Positions 12,024 to 20,825 of a stretch of 64,000 bases of DNA are shown piece after piece. This DNA comes from an uncultured Flavobacteriaceae bacterium. GTDB lineage: Bacteria; Bacteroidota; Bacteroidia; Flavobacteriales; Flavobacteriaceae. The first letter of the stretch is position 1; each line of letters opens with the position of its first letter. The DNA lies in contig CANKYF010000004.1 in NCBI GenBank assembly GCA_947487895.1, forward strand, positions 310,001-374,000, read 5' to 3'. Made by a program: the position numbers and the translations under genes. Under the pieces are notes generated by a model. It saw only the letters and a list, made by a program, of their open reading frames with translations, ran no database searches and was not told the origin of the DNA.

Positions 12024-13793
12024 ATGAAAGAGGTTACTAGAATTTTTGATTTTCCGCCATACCAATTAGAAGCTTTTAATTTAGAAAAAGCTTTTACATC
12101 AAAGTACAATGGAAAATGGGTAAGTATTTCTACCCAAGAATATATAAATCAGTACAACAAAGTAAGCAGAGGTCTATTAAAATTAGGTGTAAAACCAAAT
12201 GATAAAATAGCTGTTATCTCTACTACTAATAGAACGGAATGGAATGTTCTAGATATGGGAGTTCTTCAAATAGGGGCTCAGAACGTTCCTATTTACCCAA
12301 CTATTTCAAAAGAAGAATATGAATATGTACTAAAGCATTCTGAAGCAACATATTGTTTTGTTTCAGACGAAACCGTTCTTGAAAAACTCAATCAGATAAA
12401 AGGAAACACGCAATTAAAAGAAGTATATACTTTTAATGAAATAGAGGGTGAAAAAAATTGGAAAGAGGTTCTAGATTTAGGCGAAGATGATTCAAACCAA
12501 AAAGACGTTGAAGACAGAAAAAATGCAGTATCATCAGAAGATTTAGCAACTTTAATATACACATCTGGTACAACAGGAACGCCAAAAGGAGTTATGTTAT
12601 CTCATAAAAATCTAGTTTCAAATGTTGTAGATAGCACATCGCGAGTTCCCATGGAGCATGGAAAATCATCTGCACTAAGTTTTTTACCAGTATGCCATGT
12701 ATTTGAACGTATGATATTGTATCTGTATCAATATTGCGGAATAGAAGTATACTTCGCAGAAAGTATTGAAACTATTAGTGACAATTTAAAAGAAATTAAA
12801 CCCTATGTAATGACTGCGGTTCCTAGGCTTTACGAAAAAGTGTATGATAAAATAATTGCAAAAGGTACAGAACTAAGTGGTATTAAGAAAATGCTGTTCT
12901 TTTGGGCTGTAGATTTAGGTTTGAAATACGAACCGTACGGACAAAATGGATGGTGGTATGAGTTTAAATTAAAAATTGCCAGAAAGCTCATTTTTAGTAA
13001 ATGGAAAGAAGGTTTAGGTGGTAATCTAGGGACCTTAGTATCTGGAAGTGCCGCTTTACAACCTAGATTGATACGTATATTTTCTGCGGCTGAAATGCCA
13101 ATTCTAGAAGGTTATGGACTTACAGAAACATCACCTGTAATATCTGTTAATTGTCCTTTTAATATGGGTATAAGAATTGGTACCGTTGGAAGAATTATAG
13201 ACAATGTTGATGTAAAAATTGCTGATGATGGTGAGATTCTCGTAAAAGGTAATAACGTAATGATGGGCTATTATAAAGACCCGGAACGTACTAAAGAAGT
13301 GATGAGTGATGGATACTTCCATACGGGAGACATAGGTGAAATAAGCAATGATAATTTTCTAAAAATAACAGATCGGAAAAAAGATATGTTTAAAACATCT
13401 GGCGGAAAATATATTGTGCCTGCACTTTTAGAAAATCAGTTTAAACAATCTCGTTTCATTGAACAAATTATGGTTATTGGTGAAGGCGAAAAAATGCCTG
13501 CTGCTCTTATTCAAATTAATAATGAATTTGTTGAAGAATGGGCAAGAAGACATAATATCAATTTTACATATATTCAAGATGTTATTATTAACCCACAATT
13601 AATTGAACGCATACAAGAAGAAATTGATGAAGCCAATAAAAACTTTGGTAAATGGGAACAAATTAAAACCTTTGAAATTACGCCAGACGTTTGGACCATA
13701 GAAGACGGTTTACTCACACCTACTATGAAAATGAAACGAAAAGCAGTTAAAGAAAAGTACAAAAACCTAATTGAGAAAATATATAGAAGTTAG
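12024..13793 (+). CDS. Long-chain acyl-CoA ligase (AMP-forming)
   Basis: Activates fatty acids to acyl-CoA via an acyl-AMP intermediate, supplying the beta-oxidation genes that follow. 589 aa, the length of FadD15-type ligases. Seen: ATP/AMP-binding YTSGTTGTPKGVMLSHKN from about residue 179, LPVCHVFERM, the adenylate-forming motif GYGLTETSPVIS, and the hinge/C-terminal DGYFHTGDIGEISNDNFLKITDRKKDMFKTSGGKYI, which carries the conserved Asp and Lys. There is no signal peptide; the product is cytoplasmic or membrane-associated. Its position upstream of the MarR-fadN-fadA-fadE block supports a catabolic role, though it has its own transcription unit. Confidence 0.92.
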   Translation: MKEVTRIFDFPPYQLEAFNLEKAFTSKYNGKWVSISTQEYINQYNKVSRGLLKLGVKPNDKIAVISTTNRTEWNVLDMGVLQIGAQNVPIYPTISKEEYEYVLKHSEATYCFVSDETVLEKLNQIKGNTQLKEVYTFNEIEGEKNWKEVLDLGEDDSNQKDVEDRKNAVSSEDLATLIYTSGTTGTPKGVMLSHKNLVSNVVDSTSRVPMEHGKSSALSFLPVCHVFERMILYLYQYCGIEVYFAESIETISDNLKEIKPYVMTAVPRLYEKVYDKIIAKGTELSGIKKMLFFWAVDLGLKYEPYGQNGWWYEFKLKIARKLIFSKWKEGLGGNLGTLVSGSAALQPRLIRIFSAAEMPILEGYGLTETSPVISVNCPFNMGIRIGTVGRIIDNVDVKIADDGEILVKGNNVMMGYYKDPERTKEVMSDGYFHTGDIGEISNDNFLKITDRKKDMFKTSGGKYIVPALLENQFKQSRFIEQIMVIGEGEKMPAALIQINNEFVEEWARRHNINFTYIQDVIINPQLIERIQEEIDEANKNFGKWEQIKTFEITPDVWTIEDGLLTPTMKMKRKAVKEKYKNLIEKIYRS

Positions 13794-14913: not shown

Positions 14914-17322
14914 ATGAGTAAACGAACAATTAAAAAAGTTGCAGTTATTGGTTCTGGAATTATGGGCAGTGGTATTGCTTGTCATTTTGCCAATATTGGT
15001 ATAGATGTTTTACTACTAGACATAGTACCCAGAGAACTCAATGATGCAGAAACATCTAAAGGACTTACTTTAGAAGACAAATTGGTAAGAAATAGGTTGG
15101 TTAATGACGCTCTAAAAAAGGCACTTAAATCTAAACCTTCACCAATTTATCATCAAAAATTTGCTAGTAGAATAACTACTGGGAATTTAGAAGATGATAT
15201 CTCTAAAGTTAAAGATGTAGATTGGATTATTGAAGTTGTTGTTGAAAGACTAGATATTAAAAAACAAGTTTTTGAGAACTTAGAAAAATACAGAACACCA
15301 GGAACATTAATTACTTCTAATACTTCTGGTATTCCTATTAAGTTTATGAGTGAAGGTAGAAGTGATGACTTTCAGAAACACTTCTGCGGAACTCATTTCT
15401 TTAACCCTGCCAGATATTTAAAACTTTTTGAAATTATTCCTGGTCCTAAAACCTCCCAAACGGTTTTAGATTTCTTGAATAATTATGGTGAGCAGTATTT
15501 AGGCAAAACATCTGTAATTGCAAAAGACACACCAGCTTTTATAGGCAATAGAATAGGCATTTTTGGGATTCAATCGTTGTTCCATCAAGTAAAAGAATTA
15601 GGCTTAACTATTGAAGAGGTAGATAAATTAACAGGTCCAGTAATTGGTAGGCCAAAATCGGCAACCTTTAGAACTGTTGATGTAGTTGGTCTAGATACAT
15701 TGGTTCATGTTGCCAATGGTATATATGATAATTGTCCAGATGACGAAGCTCATGAGCTATTTAAGCTACCAAGTTTCATCAATACCATGATGGAAAACAA
15801 ATGGCTAGGCAGCAAAACAGGACAGGGCTTTTATAAAAAAGTGAAAGGTGAAAATGGTAAAAGTGAAATTCTATCTTTAGATCTTGACACTTTAGAATAT
15901 AGAAGTAAGAAAAAAGCAAAATTTGCAACATTAGAACTCACAAAATCTGTTGAAAAAGTAATTGACAGATTCAAAATATTAGTATCAGGAAAAGACAAAG
16001 CAGGCACTTTTTATAGAAAGAATTTTGCTGCTATGTTTGCCTATGTATCAAATAGAATTCCTGAAATAACCGATGAGCTTTTTAAAATTGATGATGCTAT
16101 GAAAGCTGGTTTTGGTTGGGAACATGGTCCTTTCCAAATCTGGGATGCTATTGGTGTTGAAAAAGGCCTTGAAATTATGAAAGCCGAAGGTGTTGAACCA
16201 GCTTCATGGATAAATGACATGATTAATTCTGGCAACACATCATTTTACACCGTTCAAAATGGAGCCACATATTATTATGATATATCGTCTAAATCTCAGG
16301 TGAAAAAACCAGGTCAAGACGCCTTTATAATTCTAGATAATATTAGAAAGAGTAATGAAGTATTTAAGAACTCTGGTGTTGTAATAGAAGATTTAGGAGA
16401 TGGTATTTTAAATTGTGAATTCCAATCTAAAATGAACACCATTGGCGGTGATGTTTTAGCTGGTTTGAATAAAGCAATAGATATAGCAGAAAAAGACTTT
16501 AGTGGATTAGTAATTGGAAACCAAGGCACTAATTTTTCAGTTGGTGCAAACATTGGTATGATATTCATGATGGCGGTAGAGCAGGAATATGATGAACTAA
16601 ACGGTGCTATTAAGTATTTTCAAGATACTATAATGCGCATGCGTTATTCTTCAATTCCAACAATTTCTGCGCCTCACGGAATGTCTTTGGGTGGTGCATG
16701 CGAACTCTCAATGCATGCTGACAAAGTTGTGGCCGCGGCCGAAACTTACATAGGTCTAGTAGAATTTGGGGTTGGCGTCATTCCAGGTGGCGCCGGTTCT
16801 AAAGAAATGGCTTTAAGAGCTTCAGATTCTTTTAGAAAAGGTGATGTAGAACTAAATGTATTACAAGAATATTTCTTAACCATAGGTATGGCAAAAGTAG
16901 CAACTTCTGCCTACGAAGCATTTGATATGGGTGTCCTCCAAAAAGGAAAAGATATTGTTGTAGTTAACAAAGACCGTCAAATAGCAACAGCAAAAGCTCA
17001 TGCTAAATTAATGGTAGATGCTGGTTATACGCAACCCATTAAACGTAAGGATGTCAAAGTACTTGGTAAGCAAGCTCTTGGTATGTTCTTAGTTGGAACA
17101 GATGCTATGGAAGCTTCAAATTATATTAGTGAACACGATCAAAAAATTGCTAATAAACTAGCTTATGTAATGGCAGGTGGTGATCTTTCTGAACCAACAT
17201 TGGTTTCTGAACAATACTTACTAGACCTAGAAAGAGAAGCCTTTTTAAGTTTATGTACAGAACGTAAAACTTTAGAACGTATTCAACACATGTTAAAAAC
17301 TGGAAAACCGCTACGTAATTAG
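14914..17322 (+). CDS. fadN: 3-hydroxyacyl-CoA dehydrogenase / enoyl-CoA hydratase
   Basis: Bifunctional beta-oxidation enzyme: hydration of 2-enoyl-CoA, then NAD-dependent oxidation of 3-hydroxyacyl-CoA. 802 aa with the dehydrogenase first and the hydratase last, the reverse of E. coli FadB and the order of B. subtilis FadN. Seen: Rossmann loop IGSGIMGSGIACHFAN, catalytic region CGTHFFNPARYLKLFEIIPG, and C-terminal crotonase part APHGMSLGGACELSMHAD...FGVGVIPGGAGSKEM, which forms the oxyanion hole. Cytoplasmic. The gene order fadN-fadA-fadE downstream matches the Bacillus operon. Confidence 0.92.
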   Translation: MSKRTIKKVAVIGSGIMGSGIACHFANIGIDVLLLDIVPRELNDAETSKGLTLEDKLVRNRLVNDALKKALKSKPSPIYHQKFASRITTGNLEDDISKVKDVDWIIEVVVERLDIKKQVFENLEKYRTPGTLITSNTSGIPIKFMSEGRSDDFQKHFCGTHFFNPARYLKLFEIIPGPKTSQTVLDFLNNYGEQYLGKTSVIAKDTPAFIGNRIGIFGIQSLFHQVKELGLTIEEVDKLTGPVIGRPKSATFRTVDVVGLDTLVHVANGIYDNCPDDEAHELFKLPSFINTMMENKWLGSKTGQGFYKKVKGENGKSEILSLDLDTLEYRSKKKAKFATLELTKSVEKVIDRFKILVSGKDKAGTFYRKNFAAMFAYVSNRIPEITDELFKIDDAMKAGFGWEHGPFQIWDAIGVEKGLEIMKAEGVEPASWINDMINSGNTSFYTVQNGATYYYDISSKSQVKKPGQDAFIILDNIRKSNEVFKNSGVVIEDLGDGILNCEFQSKMNTIGGDVLAGLNKAIDIAEKDFSGLVIGNQGTNFSVGANIGMIFMMAVEQEYDELNGAIKYFQDTIMRMRYSSIPTISAPHGMSLGGACELSMHADKVVAAAETYIGLVEFGVGVIPGGAGSKEMALRASDSFRKGDVELNVLQEYFLTIGMAKVATSAYEAFDMGVLQKGKDIVVVNKDRQIATAKAHAKLMVDAGYTQPIKRKDVKVLGKQALGMFLVGTDAMEASNYISEHDQKIANKLAYVMAGGDLSEPTLVSEQYLLDLEREAFLSLCTERKTLERIQHMLKTGKPLRN

Positions 17323-17325
17323 AAA

Positions 17326-17393
17326 CAAGATGCAAGACACAAGAACAAAGATAAATAAAGTCTTGGCTCTTGATTCTTAATTCTCAAATCTCA
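17326..17393. repeat. Heptad-repeat inverted element without a gene
   Basis: Left array: CAAGAnn units begin at 17326, 17333, 17340 and (as AAAGA) 17347. Right array: TCTTGnn units at 17361 and 17368, with degenerate units at 17375, 17382 and 17389. The period is exactly 7 bp and the two arrays are inverted, so an RNA would form a stem with a short AT loop. The same motif and period flank the four-helix-bundle gene 1.2 kb downstream. It fills the fadN-fadA gap. Confidence 0.75.
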
Positions 17394-17400
17394 AAAAAAG

Positions 17401-18591
17401 ATGAAACAAGCATATATAGTTAAAGCATATAGAACAGCCGTTGGTAAAGCACCTAAAGGATTATTTCGTTTTAAACGAACCGATGAACTAGCTGCTGAAA
17501 CCATTCAACACATGATGAAAGAATTACCTCAACTAGATAAAACCAGAATAGACGATGTTATTGTTGGTAACGCTATGCCAGAGGGTTCTCAAGGATTAAA
17601 TATGGCACGTTTAATCTCTTTAATGGGGTTAGAAAGTGTTGATATTCCTGGGGTAACCGTTAATAGATTTTGTTCTTCTGGTGTAGAAACCATTGCTATG
17701 GCAACTGCTAAAATTCAATCTGGAATGGCTGATTGCATTATTGCAGGTGGGGCAGAAAGTATGAGTTCTGTACCTATGACTGGATTTAAACCAGAGCTTA
17801 ATTATGATATTGTTAAAGCAGGTCACGAAGATTATTACTGGGGCATGGGAAATACCGCAGAGGCCGTTGCAAATCAATTTAAAGTATCTAGAGAAGATCA
17901 AGATGAATTTGCCTATAATTCGCATATGAAAGCTTTAAAAGCACAAGCTGAAGATAGATTTCAAGATCAAATAGTCCCTATTGAAGTGAATCAAACCTAT
18001 ATAGATGCCAACGGAAAAAAGGCAACTAAAACTTATATAGTAACAAAAGATGAAGGTCCTAGAAAAGGAACCAATAAAGAAGTATTAGCTAAACTAAGAC
18101 CTGTATTTGCTCAAGGTGGTAGTGTTACCGCAGGTAACTCTTCTCAAATGAGTGATGGTGCTGCTTTTGTTTTAATTATGAGTGAGGATATGGTAAAAGA
18201 GTTAAATCTTGAACCAATAGCTAGAATGGTTAACTATGCCGCCGCAGGTGTAGAACCACGTATCATGGGAATTGGACCAGTTAAAGCCATTCCTAAAGCA
18301 TTAAAACTAGCTGGACTTAATCAAAACGATTTAGAGCTTTTTGAATTAAATGAAGCCTTTGCATCTCAATCATTAGCTGTGATAAGAGAATTAAATTTGA
18401 ATCCAGATATTGTAAATGTAAATGGTGGAGCTATAGCTTTGGGACACCCATTAGGATGTACTGGAGCTAAATTATCTGTTCAATTATTTGATGAAATGCG
18501 CAAACGCAATATGAAAGGTAAATATGGCGCAGTTACCATGTGCGTAGGTACTGGTCAAGGCGCTTGTGGAATTTTTGAATTCTTGAATTAA
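17401..18591 (+). CDS. fadA: Acetyl-CoA C-acyltransferase (thiolase)
   Basis: Last step of beta-oxidation: cleaves 3-ketoacyl-CoA with CoA to acetyl-CoA and a shortened acyl-CoA. 396 aa, the usual length. Seen: nucleophile [14 protein letters not shown] (Cys91), [10 protein letters not shown], the histidine motif [20 protein letters not shown], and the second cysteine in [15 protein letters not shown]. Cytoplasmic. It is separated from fadN by a heptad-repeat element and from fadE by the four-helix-bundle cassette, yet all are on one strand in what reads as one operon. Confidence 0.94.
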
Positions 18592-18603: not shown

Positions 18604-18624
18604 TTAGAATCAAGATTCAAGACT
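18604..18624. repeat. Left heptad array of the four-helix-bundle element
   Basis: Units TTAGAat (18604), CAAGAtt (18611) and CAAGAct (18618) have a period of 7 bp. The start codon at 18625 falls exactly on the next heptad boundary. They are inverted relative to the TCTTGnn array after the gene. Confidence 0.75.
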
Positions 18625-18978
18625 ATGCATAATTTCAAAAAATTAAAAATTTGGTCTGAAAGCATAAAGCTAGTCTCAAAGTCATATAAATTAACTAGGA
18701 CATTTCCTGACTTTGAAAAATTCGGATTGGTAACACAAATGAATAGATGTACAGTTTCAATACCATCAAATATTGCAGAAGGATCAAGTAAAAGTTCAGA
18801 TAAACATTTTAACAAATATCTTGAAGACAGTTTGGGGTCTGCATTTGAATGGGAAACTCAGTTAATAATAGCATTCAATGAAAAATACCTTTCAGAAAAT
18901 GATTTTAAAGAATTAGAACAAAAGATAAAAGAAATACAAAAAATGATATCAAGTTTTCAAAGTAGTCTAGACAGATAA
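18625..18978 (+). CDS. Four-helix-bundle protein (S23 / rRNA intervening-sequence type)
   Basis: 117 aa, of the family first known from intervening sequences in 23S rRNA and related to the Avd protein of diversity-generating retroelements. The diagnostic second-helix motif LVTQMNRCTVSIPSNIAEGSSKSS is present, as are KLKIWSESIKLVSKSYKLT at the start and a long amphipathic last helix. The family is known for basic pentameric bundles that bind nucleic acid. Here the gene is inserted between fadA and fadE and is flanked on both sides by inverted 7-bp-period arrays (18604-18624 and 18981-19015). It has no apparent link to fatty-acid metabolism. Confidence 0.88.
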   Translation: MHNFKKLKIWSESIKLVSKSYKLTRTFPDFEKFGLVTQMNRCTVSIPSNIAEGSSKSSDKHFNKYLEDSLGSAFEWETQLIIAFNEKYLSENDFKELEQKIKEIQKMISSFQSSLDR

Positions 18979-18980
18979 TG

Positions 18981-19015
18981 TCTTGATTCTTGGTTCTTGA
19001 GTCCTAATATCTATA
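18981..19015. repeat. Right heptad array of the four-helix-bundle element
   Basis: Units TCTTGat (18981), TCTTGgt (18988) and TCTTGag (18995), then degenerate TCCTAat (19002) and ATCTAta (19009), with a period of exactly 7 bp. It is inverted relative to the left array and begins 2 bp after the stop of the four-helix-bundle gene, directly before fadE. Confidence 0.75.
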
Positions 19016-19019
19016 TTAT

Positions 19020-20825
19020 ATGGAAGAAAATAAAATATTAAGAGGCGGACAATTTCTAGTGAAAGAAACTAGTTGTGATGACGTTTTTACACCTGAAGAT
19101 TTCAGTGAAGATCAGCTTATGATGAAAGAAGCTGTTACTGAATTTGTTGATAGAGAAGTTTGGTCTAAAAAAGCACAATTCGAACAAAAAGATTATAAGT
19201 TAACCGAAGATTGCATGCGTAAAGCGGGCGAACTCGGTTTTTTAAGTGTTGCAGTACCAGAAGAATATGGCGGTATGGGAATGGGTTTTGTAGATACCTG
19301 TTTGGTTTGTGATTATATTTCTGGCGCAACTGGTTCGTTTAGTACAGCTTTTGGAGCACATACTGGTATTGGTACTATGCCAATCACCCTTTATGGCTCA
19401 GAAGAACAAAAGCAAAAATATGTCCCAAAATTAGCAAGTGGAGAATGGTTTGGTGCTTACTGTCTAACAGAACCTAGTGCAGGTAGTGATGCTAACTCTG
19501 GCAAAACTAAAGCTGTACTTTCTGAAGATGGTAAAACGTATAAAATTACAGGACAGAAAATGTGGATTTCAAACGCTGGTTTCTGTAGTTTAATGATTGT
19601 TTTTGCTAGAATTGAAGACGACAAAAATATTACAGGTTTTATAGTTGAATATGATCCTGATAACCCTAACGGTATTACATTGGGTGAAGAAGAGCATAAA
19701 TTAGGAATTCGTGCCTCTTCAACACGTCAAGTATTTTTCAATGAAACTGTAGTGCCTGTTGACAATATGTTATCTACAAGAGGTAATGGCTTTAAAATAG
19801 CTATGAACGCGCTTAACGTAGGTAGAATTAAATTAGCCGCAGCTTGTTTAGATGCGCAACGCCGAACTATTACAGAATCTATTAAATATGCGAATGAGCG
19901 CATTCAGTTTAAAACACCTATTTCTAGTTTTGGTGCTATTCGTCAAAAAATTGCGGAAATGGCAACAAACTGTTGGGTTGGTGAAGCTGCAAGTTATAGA
20001 GCTGCAAAAAATATTGAAGACAGAATAGAGTTAAGACAAAATAACGGTAAAGACACACACCAAGAAGCAGAACTAAAAGGTGTTGAAGAATACGCCATTG
20101 AATGTTCTATACTAAAAGTAGCAGTCTCTGAATTTGTACAAAACTGTACAGATGAAGGTATTCAGATATTTGGAGGAATGGGCTTCTCTGAGGAAACACC
20201 TATTGAATCTGCATGGAGAGATGCTCGTATTTCAAGAATTTATGAGGGTACCAATGAAATTAATCGTATGTTAAGCATTGGCATGCTGATTAAAAAAGCA
20301 ATGAAAGGTCATGTAGATGTATTAACACCAGCTATGGCTGTAAAAGAAGAATTAATGGGTGTGCCGTCGTTTGACACTCCAGACTTTTCAGAGTTATTTT
20401 CAGAAGAAAAAAGCATTATCAATAATCTTAAAAAATTATTTTTAATGGTAGCAGGTGCTGCTCTTGAAAAGTATGGTGAAAAAATTGAACAGCAACAACA
20501 ATTAATGTTAGCTTCCTCAGATATTTTAATTCAAATTTATTTAGCAGAGTCTGCCATACTTAGAGCTGAAAAAATGGCTAAAAAAGAAGGCGAAGAAAAC
20601 GTAAAAGAACAAATAGCTATGGCAAAATTAAACTTATTCCATGCCATTGATGTTATAGAAACTGCTGGTAAACACTCTATTATTTCTTTTTCTTCTGGAG
20701 ATGAACAACGCATGATGTTAATGGGCTTAAAACGCTATATTAAGTATGTAAACATGCCAAACATTATAGAATTGAGAAATATTATTGCTAGTAAAGTAAC
20801 TCAAGAAAATAAATATTGCTTTTAA
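19020..20825 (+). CDS. fadE: Acyl-CoA dehydrogenase
   Basis: FAD-dependent oxidation of acyl-CoA to 2-enoyl-CoA, the first step of beta-oxidation. 601 aa, the long form with a C-terminal extension as in B. subtilis FadE. Seen: substrate/FAD region WFGAYCLTEPSAGSDANSGKT, GQKMWISNAG, the FAD-binding stretch GIQIFGGMGFSEETPIESAWRDARISRIYEGTNEINRML carrying the catalytic-region YEGT motif, and an extra helical C-terminal domain. Last gene of the operon, followed by a terminator. Confidence 0.93.
   Translation: MEENKILRGGQFLVKETSCDDVFTPEDFSEDQLMMKEAVTEFVDREVWSKKAQFEQKDYKLTEDCMRKAGELGFLSVAVPEEYGGMGMGFVDTCLVCDYISGATGSFSTAFGAHTGIGTMPITLYGSEEQKQKYVPKLASGEWFGAYCLTEPSAGSDANSGKTKAVLSEDGKTYKITGQKMWISNAGFCSLMIVFARIEDDKNITGFIVEYDPDNPNGITLGEEEHKLGIRASSTRQVFFNETVVPVDNMLSTRGNGFKIAMNALNVGRIKLAAACLDAQRRTITESIKYANERIQFKTPISSFGAIRQKIAEMATNCWVGEAASYRAAKNIEDRIELRQNNGKDTHQEAELKGVEEYAIECSILKVAVSEFVQNCTDEGIQIFGGMGFSEETPIESAWRDARISRIYEGTNEINRMLSIGMLIKKAMKGHVDVLTPAMAVKEELMGVPSFDTPDFSELFSEEKSIINNLKKLFLMVAGAALEKYGEKIEQQQQLMLASSDILIQIYLAESAILRAEKMAKKEGEENVKEQIAMAKLNLFHAIDVIETAGKHSIISFSSGDEQRMMLMGLKRYIKYVNMPNIIELRNIIASKVTQENKYCF

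Follow-up and report, generated by a model that had tools for sequence, protein, structure and literature searches.

The uncultured Flavobacteriaceae bacterium studied here carries, between the fadA- and fadE-like genes of its fad operon, a gene for a small four-helix-bundle protein that is framed by two arrays of 7-nucleotide repeats (Table 1). All coordinates refer to the window, i.e., the whole stretch of 64,000 nucleotides that was analysed. Reading of the sequence places the ATG of the gene at 18625 and the end of its stop codon at 18978. It also bears out the unit coordinates, the exact 7-bp period and the inverted orientation of the two arrays given in the original prediction. With regard to the three CAAGAnn-like upstream units, the predicted positions proved right, but only two units (18611-18617 and 18618-18624) are clean while the first (18604-18610) is degenerate. 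Downstream of the gene, three TCTTGnn units (18981-18987, 18988-18994 and 18995-19001) are followed by degenerate ones starting at 19002 and 19009, and TRF detected a period of 7 at 18981-19000. The two arms constitute an inverted repeat (89% over 18 nt). When the 4.39-Mb genome was searched for TCTTGNNTCTTGNNTCTTG, a triple TCTTGNN, with at most one mismatch, four matches were obtained, two of them overlapping, compared with none for a control pattern. All four lie inside the fad operon, within 1.7 kb of one another, three of them at 17326-17379. An Rfam scan of the window yielded no match; with this result and the position of the gene between fadA and fadE, a 23S rRNA setting for this copy was rejected.

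Table 1 Features of the fad operon and its two heptad elements (window coordinates)
Feature	Position	Strand	Remarks
fadB-like gene, upstream neighbour	14914..17322	+	named from sequence reading
Gene-less heptad hairpin between fadB and fadA	17320..17396	+	inverted array pair, no gene inside
fadA-like thiolase	17401..18591	+	between gene-less hairpin and gene-bearing element
Upstream arm	18604..18624	+	TTAGAAT, CAAGATT, CAAGACT; period 7; adjoins start codon
PF05635 23S_rRNA_IVP / TIGR02436 four-helix-bundle gene	18625..18978	+	117 aa
Downstream arm	18981..19015	+	TCTTGAT, TCTTGGT, TCTTGAG, TCCTAAT, ATCTATA; inverted vs upstream arm
fadE-like acyl-CoA dehydrogenase, downstream neighbour	19020..20825	+	

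The identity of the protein as a four-helix bundle of the S23/IVS type, originally proposed from the sequence, was confirmed by its match to PF05635 (E 2e-37; 128.1 bits, curated cut-off 33.8) and TIGR02436 (114.7 bits, cut-off 24). A match to bAvd (2.8e-06) stayed below the cut-off of that profile. The AlphaFold model has a pLDDT of 96.6, and Foldseek matched it to 2gsc (TM 0.95) and 2rld (TM 0.82), each deposited with five chains, to Avd (4dwl; TM 0.81, E 0.042, 11% identity) and to Avd-like chains of DGR ribonucleoprotein entries from 2024. No catalytic domain was recognised in the 117-aa protein. The median dN/dS of 0.07, obtained for 29 usable pairs of at least 78% identity that stem nearly all from the same site, points to purifying selection. 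Decayed copies with in-frame stops were seen near arrays at three loci (L013, L024 and L031). The possibility of a defence system was considered and dropped, as PADLOC gave no match for three proteins.

A second heptad element, absent from the original prediction, resides in the spacer between fadB and fadA. It is made up of the units CAAGATG, CAAGACA and CAAGAAC on one side and TCTTGGC, TCTTGAT, TCTTAAT and TCTCAAA on the other, shares its word (CAAGAnn) with the gene-bearing element between fadA and fadE, and is directly abutted by the TAG stop codon of fadB (17320-17322). It folds into stems of 4-5 bp split by 2x2 internal loops, in which its variable positions sit unpaired (z -3.59; none of 200 shuffled sequences folded as well). 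Both spacers were compared in 30 fad operons, including that of the window. Many are as short as 3-32 bp, others contain either a gene-less heptad hairpin or a gene inside arrays, and a few contain other sequence. By reading, a gene occupies one or both spacers in ten of the 30 operons. Between fadA and fadE, the spacer measures 428 bp in the window compared with 19-23 bp in four of six congeners; of the remaining two, one has 138 bp and no gene, the other 455 bp that include a gene from a different subfamily. The presence of the gene is thus patchy within the genus. GC-rich inverted tracts (CCCCTCCTAGCC.../...GGGGAGAGG), possibly another family of repeat hairpins, were noted in the fadB-fadA spacers of L044, L047 and L048 and also in the fadA-fadE spacer of L044. 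At eight loci (L041, L043, L046, L050, L054, L063, L066 and L069) the stop codon of the upstream gene is a TAG that is followed at once by the array, so that the element may itself supply the stop codon.

Copies of the gene are not restricted to the fad operon. A protein search detected six in the same genome and a profile search nine; by eye, the first six all have inverted arrays of period 6 to 8 in both flanks, each with its own word and some of them degenerate. Members of PF05635 are present in 41 of the 59 genomes examined, including that of the window, and the flanks of 75 gene copies from this set were read by eye. A protein-only scan of named genomes, the majority from Bacteroidota, supplied a second set, the best 80 of 589 loci, 79 of which have an open frame. 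In the flanks of these 79 loci, period 7 at 15/21 or better was found in 53 of 158 cases compared with 35 of 584 flanks of control genes; the corresponding counts were 22 and 9 for period 8 and 43 and 19 for period 14, the harmonic, while every other lag from 4 to 13 was seen in at most two of the 158. As for complementarity of the two arms, a score of at least 14 was reached by 68% of 77 loci, by 6% of mismatched pairs and by 4.5% of 292 control genes, with means of 16.6, 9.0 and 8.9, respectively, and for 26 loci their own downstream arm was the best of all 77. The control genes were mechanically called open reading frames, a few of which later proved to be four-helix genes, and the comparison is therefore conservative. 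A smaller first test on 35 loci pointed in the same direction but more weakly (arm score 15.9 matched vs 9.5 mismatched; 99th percentile reached or exceeded by 12 of 35 loci); the 68 control frames used in it overlapped arrays. The original prediction had offered itself for refutation by a lack of array enrichment beside homologues as compared with other genes, or by arrays being just as common next to unrelated genes; enrichment was found, and neither outcome was obtained. Among 154 loci, 103 pass the array threshold (at least 15/21), 87 the complementarity threshold (at least 14), 123 either and 31 neither; since the genomes are related, these counts are not independent. Three loci were left out, L014 because it is the same gene as L002, and L099 and L239 for want of a suitable open frame.

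The association also emerged in the opposite direction. When 3986 mechanically called frames were scanned for inverted periodic flanks without use of protein identity and without merging overlapping loci, 15 matched and ten of these are PF05635 genes, nine of them confirmed by Pfam above cut-off and one being the fadA-fadE gene in an overlapping locus. The other five are four fad genes lying between two tracts, three of which are the fadA of the window, and one A-rich false match. The same scan pattern is present in 64 of 152 known PF05635 copies. As far as the neighbouring genes could be named by reading of the frames, they include thiG/thiH, molybdopterin and threonine genes in addition to fad, and 139 of 146 scorable copies point in the same direction as both neighbours. 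At L002 (1853-1910), the downstream array extends into the start of a thiH-like frame, where it encodes a low-complexity N-terminal extension (KPIAKNQKPKAKK). Among the loci analysed, five words of 23S rRNA were found only in one background stretch (L134), with the proviso that short flanks may hide an rRNA setting at a few other loci.

Does the repeat word belong to the protein or to the site? The question was addressed with the 146 loci that encode full proteins, eight of the 154 with fewer than 95 aa being left out of protein identity comparisons, and with 5000 permutations of the labels. Pairs located at unrelated sites but sharing at least 60% protein identity had a mean cross-locus arm score of 15.4, compared with 9.8 after permutation (n=125, p<=2e-4, no permutation as high). 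Conversely, pairs from the same or related sites with less than 50% identity scored 10.1, compared with 9.5 at unrelated sites, and scores of 16 or more were found in 4.9% and 1.7% of such pairs, respectively. Any effect of the landing site on the word is thus small at most. By eye, proteins with AYQKxFDLAM go with CAGTnnn, MDFG proteins with GACCGAA-like words, MRDFRKLDIW proteins with TTAGCYT-like words, MHKIEDL proteins with TATTGAG words and MHNFKKLKIW proteins, including that of the window, with CAAGAnn. The CAAGA/TCTTG arrays originally expected for the family hold only for the MHNFKKLKIW subfamily; the words of other subfamilies are different. The best period is 7 at 78 loci, 8 at 22 and 6 at two (L037 and L095). 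Period 8 is characteristic of the MHRFKDLEIW group and occurs in particular subfamilies (L003, L030, L074, L216, L224, L240, L252 and L262). The effect of protein identity on agreement in period at unrelated sites is modest, such agreement being observed for 59 of 86 pairs with at least 55% identity and for 57% of 4756 pairs below that value. Judged from these comparisons, it is the protein subfamily and hardly the site that the word follows, and the same is true of the period to a slight extent.

Insights into mobility came from viral contigs. At one viral site, the flanking genes of which by reading resemble those for a major capsid and a head-decoration protein, three contigs contain the element and nine lack it, and neither array is present at the empty sites. 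The break was located by blastn: empty L310 has 3 bp where L317 has 427. Bounded at 420 bp, the element consisting of arrays and gene is 96-98% identical among the three filled contigs, while the adjoining 1-kb flanks are 79-90% and the nearest 50 bp 84-96% identical. Because the first 50 bp outside the element are so similar, short-tract recombination could also carry it between lineages. There is no clear target-site duplication; a possible TCCTT lies on both sides in the three viral copies and may be a selected ribosome-binding site. A search for a second pair of empty and filled viral sites returned only two known filled contigs. Comparison of insertion sites with relatives lacking the gene, a check suggested along with the original prediction, indicates that at the sites examined gene and arrays occur jointly or not at all. 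This joint behaviour and the near-identity of the element within diverged flanks suggest that gene and arrays form one mobile unit. The self-contained inserted element envisaged at the outset is accordingly well supported from two sides, as gene and arrays come and go jointly and the word follows the protein at unrelated sites. An obligate partnership with a reverse transcriptase or a Y1 transposase was rejected on account of several copy-rich genomes without a match. Y1 transposase matches were obtained for 20 of the 59 genomes and for none of copy-rich G002, G033 and G034. RVT_1 occurs in 17 of the 59, the genome of the window having one on another contig (C23), with no match in G002, G013, G033 and G034, which have 6, 16, 10 and 8 PF05635 matches, respectively.

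In total, 24 viral contigs in IMG/VR, with near-identical contigs unmerged, encode a PF05635 protein, and 14 of them reach an arm complementarity of at least 14. A tblastn search of INPHARED phages gave no match, and one of plasmids returned 17 records, 16 from cyanobacteria and one from Gemmatirosa. Twelve of the 17, all cyanobacterial, were analysed; the plasmid and viral figures stand without control flanks. One flank or both showed a periodicity of at least 0.8 over 21 bases in 11 of the 12 (period 7 in ten, period 8 in L279), and arm complementarity of at least 14 in eight, the arms of L273 being direct and not inverted. Among the cyanobacterial and viral copies are some that run antisense to the genes on both sides. 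Annotated neighbours on the plasmids include ribonucleotide reductase genes, cas6 and cas4 on two plasmids, and cas10 and a cmr3-family gene, the copy lying between the two in each case. The four-helix genes and heptads at these cas positions (L273, L282 and L279) may have been counted as CRISPR-associated.

Arrays also exist apart from the gene. In 800 kb of two PF05635-positive congeners of one genus, 11 intergenic period-7 arrays of at least 16/21 were found, none of which adjoins a four-helix gene. G002 contributes six of them, four clustered in a single 20-kb stretch, and one or two of the whole set are A/T-rich. Five PF05635-negative genomes (709 kb) yielded none at this threshold and a single A/T-rich array at 15 or more. 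Gene-less arrays thus appear in the sampled genomes with the gene, and none was seen in those sampled without it. Four gene-less arrays with different words lie within 6 kb of each other in G002 (L134, 12484-18126). The first is probably close to a 23S rRNA gene, given two words at 12830 and 12985 that we take to be of 23S rRNA origin. CAGT arrays are present in 12 of 14 genomes with a CAGT-type gene compared with 10 of 45 without (Fisher p 3.4e-5, uncorrected for relatedness and with gene-flanking arrays included); a reversed control pattern matched in eight of the 59 genomes with small counts. Three of the ten genomes that have CAGT arrays in the absence of such a gene contain 59-75 matches, and these exceptions, some of them array-rich, count against strict dependence on the gene. 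As regards strict inverted pairing, 21 distinct CAGT arrays, gene-less or gene-bearing, were compared: an array of opposite orientation lies no more than 51 bp away in four cases, once in reverse order, at 403 bp in one case and at 1403 bp in another, while the 3-kb locus holds none for the other 15.

Together, the sequence data support a mobile unit in which protein and repeats are matched. We consider it probable that this is a minimal mobile element of about 420 bp, consisting of a single gene and two cognate ends that are read by an Avd-like oligomer. The ends would be the inverted arrays near the start and stop codons, comprising two or three to more than ten heptads, or octads or hexads in some subfamilies. 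Binding of an oligomer to the repeats as its cognate ends, perhaps one unit per subunit, appears to be the most economical reading. Recognition would then drive movement through recombination or replication enzymes of the host, which we invoke because the protein lacks a recognisable catalytic domain. The protein might also mobilise gene-less hairpins in trans. Points against this reading are the 31 of 154 loci below both thresholds, the direct arms of L273, the CAGT arrays in genomes lacking a CAGT-type gene, the CAGT arrays that have no opposite partner, and the want of a clear target-site duplication. If the gene lacks its own promoter and depends on read-through in an operon, this would explain the co-orientation of 139 of the 146 copies that could be scored among the 154, a feature that fits either such a dependence or a constraint at the RNA level.

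Such a constraint is the core of the rival that survives best, although we hold it to be unlikely: the arms would pair in the polycistronic mRNA, an RNase III-like cut would excise the gene or separate the cistrons, and the protein would bind the purine-rich 5' repeats for autoregulation, the whole being a counterpart of the 23S rRNA intervening sequences outside rRNA. Indeed, pairing of the complementary arms around the gene is predicted (-26.4 kcal/mol for the fadA-fadE duplex), the upstream arm is G-rich and the downstream arm C-rich (GC skew +0.25/-0.19 vs -0.05/+0.03 in control genes), and the two arms match better within a locus than after exchange between loci of one subfamily (15.6 vs 13.0; 97 of 125 pairs), as local homogenisation would also bring about. 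Furthermore, rRNA intervening sequences with the same reading frame have complementary ends that are cut by RNase III, as set out in PMC4990558, and Avd chains are components of a reverse-transcriptase ribonucleoprotein according to titles of structure entries. Yet the pairing is hardly specific for register: the best score exceeds the shifted ones by 4.6 in matched arms and by 3.7 across loci of the same subfamily, and register-specific pairing was discarded as proof of an RNA stem in view of this slight excess. The variable positions of the gene-less hairpin fall into internal loops, the whole fadA-fadE element folds only somewhat better than shuffled sequences (z -1.83; 3 of 100 as good), and the antisense cyanobacterial and viral copies do not fit. 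By itself, RNA pairing explains neither the spread of the arrays nor the coupling of word and protein.

A host regulatory function, with the arrays as regulatory or terminator elements of operons and the protein as a host regulator acting there, seems quite improbable. The arrays do adjoin start and stop codons, a role in translational control has been proposed for TAACTGA repeats that precede start codons (PMC4679880), and the protein bears the mark of purifying selection; however, the neighbours (fad, thiG/thiH, molybdopterin, threonine, cas, ribonucleotide reductase and phage capsid genes) have no evident common function, presence is patchy within the genus and each subfamily has its own word. 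Even less credit can be given to simple repeats made by polymerase slippage in or near which genes merely land. According to PMC4679880 and PMC4692102, heptamers outnumber all other long simple repeats in many bacteria, and slippage has been proposed as their source; perfect long runs do exist (L005 and L273), but this reading is already disfavoured by a word that tracks the protein and not the site, by period 8 in some subfamilies such as the MHRFKDLEIW group, by the inversion of the arms, by relatives with equivalent spacers of 3-32 bp free of gene and arrays, and by empty viral sites without arrays. Least probable of all is a reverse-transcriptase-dependent retroelement akin to the diversity-generating retroelements with the protein as its Avd, which the fold and the weak sequence match to Avd would favour but which is at odds with RVT_1 being found in only 17 of 59 genomes and not in the four copy-rich ones named above.

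The mobile element that we prefer can be compared with several known systems. The intervening sequence in the 23S rRNA of Coxiella is 428 nt long, contains an S23p reading frame, has complementary ends and has been called a selfish element (PMC4990558). The present copies share with it the protein family and the arrangement of a reading frame within an insert of about 430 nt with complementary ends; in contrast, they lie between protein genes, have period-7 arrays with a word linked to the protein, and come with gene-less copies and empty viral sites. Avd of the diversity-generating retroelements has the same fold, whereas several genomes rich in copies here have no RVT_1 match. The family of PF05635-type proteins has been reported near DGR and CRISPR loci in passages of PMC10053308 and PMC10910872. 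PMC5524665 describes, for predicted phage regions of two Flavobacterium columnare strains, a four helix bundle gene that has guanylate kinase and nadD-type genes as its neighbours; the passages of that paper on this gene do not mention arrays. Four-helix genes of this kind inside cas, ribonucleotide reductase or metabolic operons may be passengers rather than parts of these systems.

With MITEs and insertion sequences, the element has in common inverted ends, insertion at a defined point and gene-less derivatives. It differs in that its sole reading frame (PF05635) is not a transposase, its ends are tandem arrays with a word for each subfamily, and no clear target duplication is seen. The gene-less hairpins fit the description of a MITE as short, non-coding and bounded by inverted repeats, but gene-bearing copies do not.

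The STRRs of cyanobacteria are heptanucleotide repeats. The plasmid copies likewise represent intergenic tandem heptanucleotides and may be akin to the published STRR families. PMC4679880 documents TAACTGA heptads in Beggiatoaceae, cyanobacteria and Bacteroidetes, and PMC4692102 the heptads GGGAATC in Xanthomonas and GGGGA(C/T)T in Nostoc as well as 70 and 75 convergent heptad pairs in two Xanthomonas genomes. Judged by word search, neither paper mentions an S23 or four-helix gene in its main text, and in the literature covered, with preprints and most subscription journals outside, we found none that links S23/IVP genes to heptad arrays. The mobile gene and its arrays join two puzzles, the role of the S23/IVP four-helix proteins and the heptanucleotide repeats littering the spacers of cyanobacteria and other bacteria, and may explain these puzzling repeats in cyanobacteria and flavobacteria. 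More tentatively, and with somewhat less than even confidence, we suggest a new class of mobile elements in which an oligomer reads a 7-nt word that is predictable from the protein, the heptads of cyanobacteria, flavobacteria, xanthomonads and giant sulfur bacteria being its footprints and the rRNA intervening sequences one specialised branch. The 154 loci compared provide natural pairs of protein and word, and from such a family a recognition code might be derived from sequence alone. Like the published heptanucleotide repeats, the arrays described here are mostly intergenic; unlike them, they are tied to an S23 four-helix gene.
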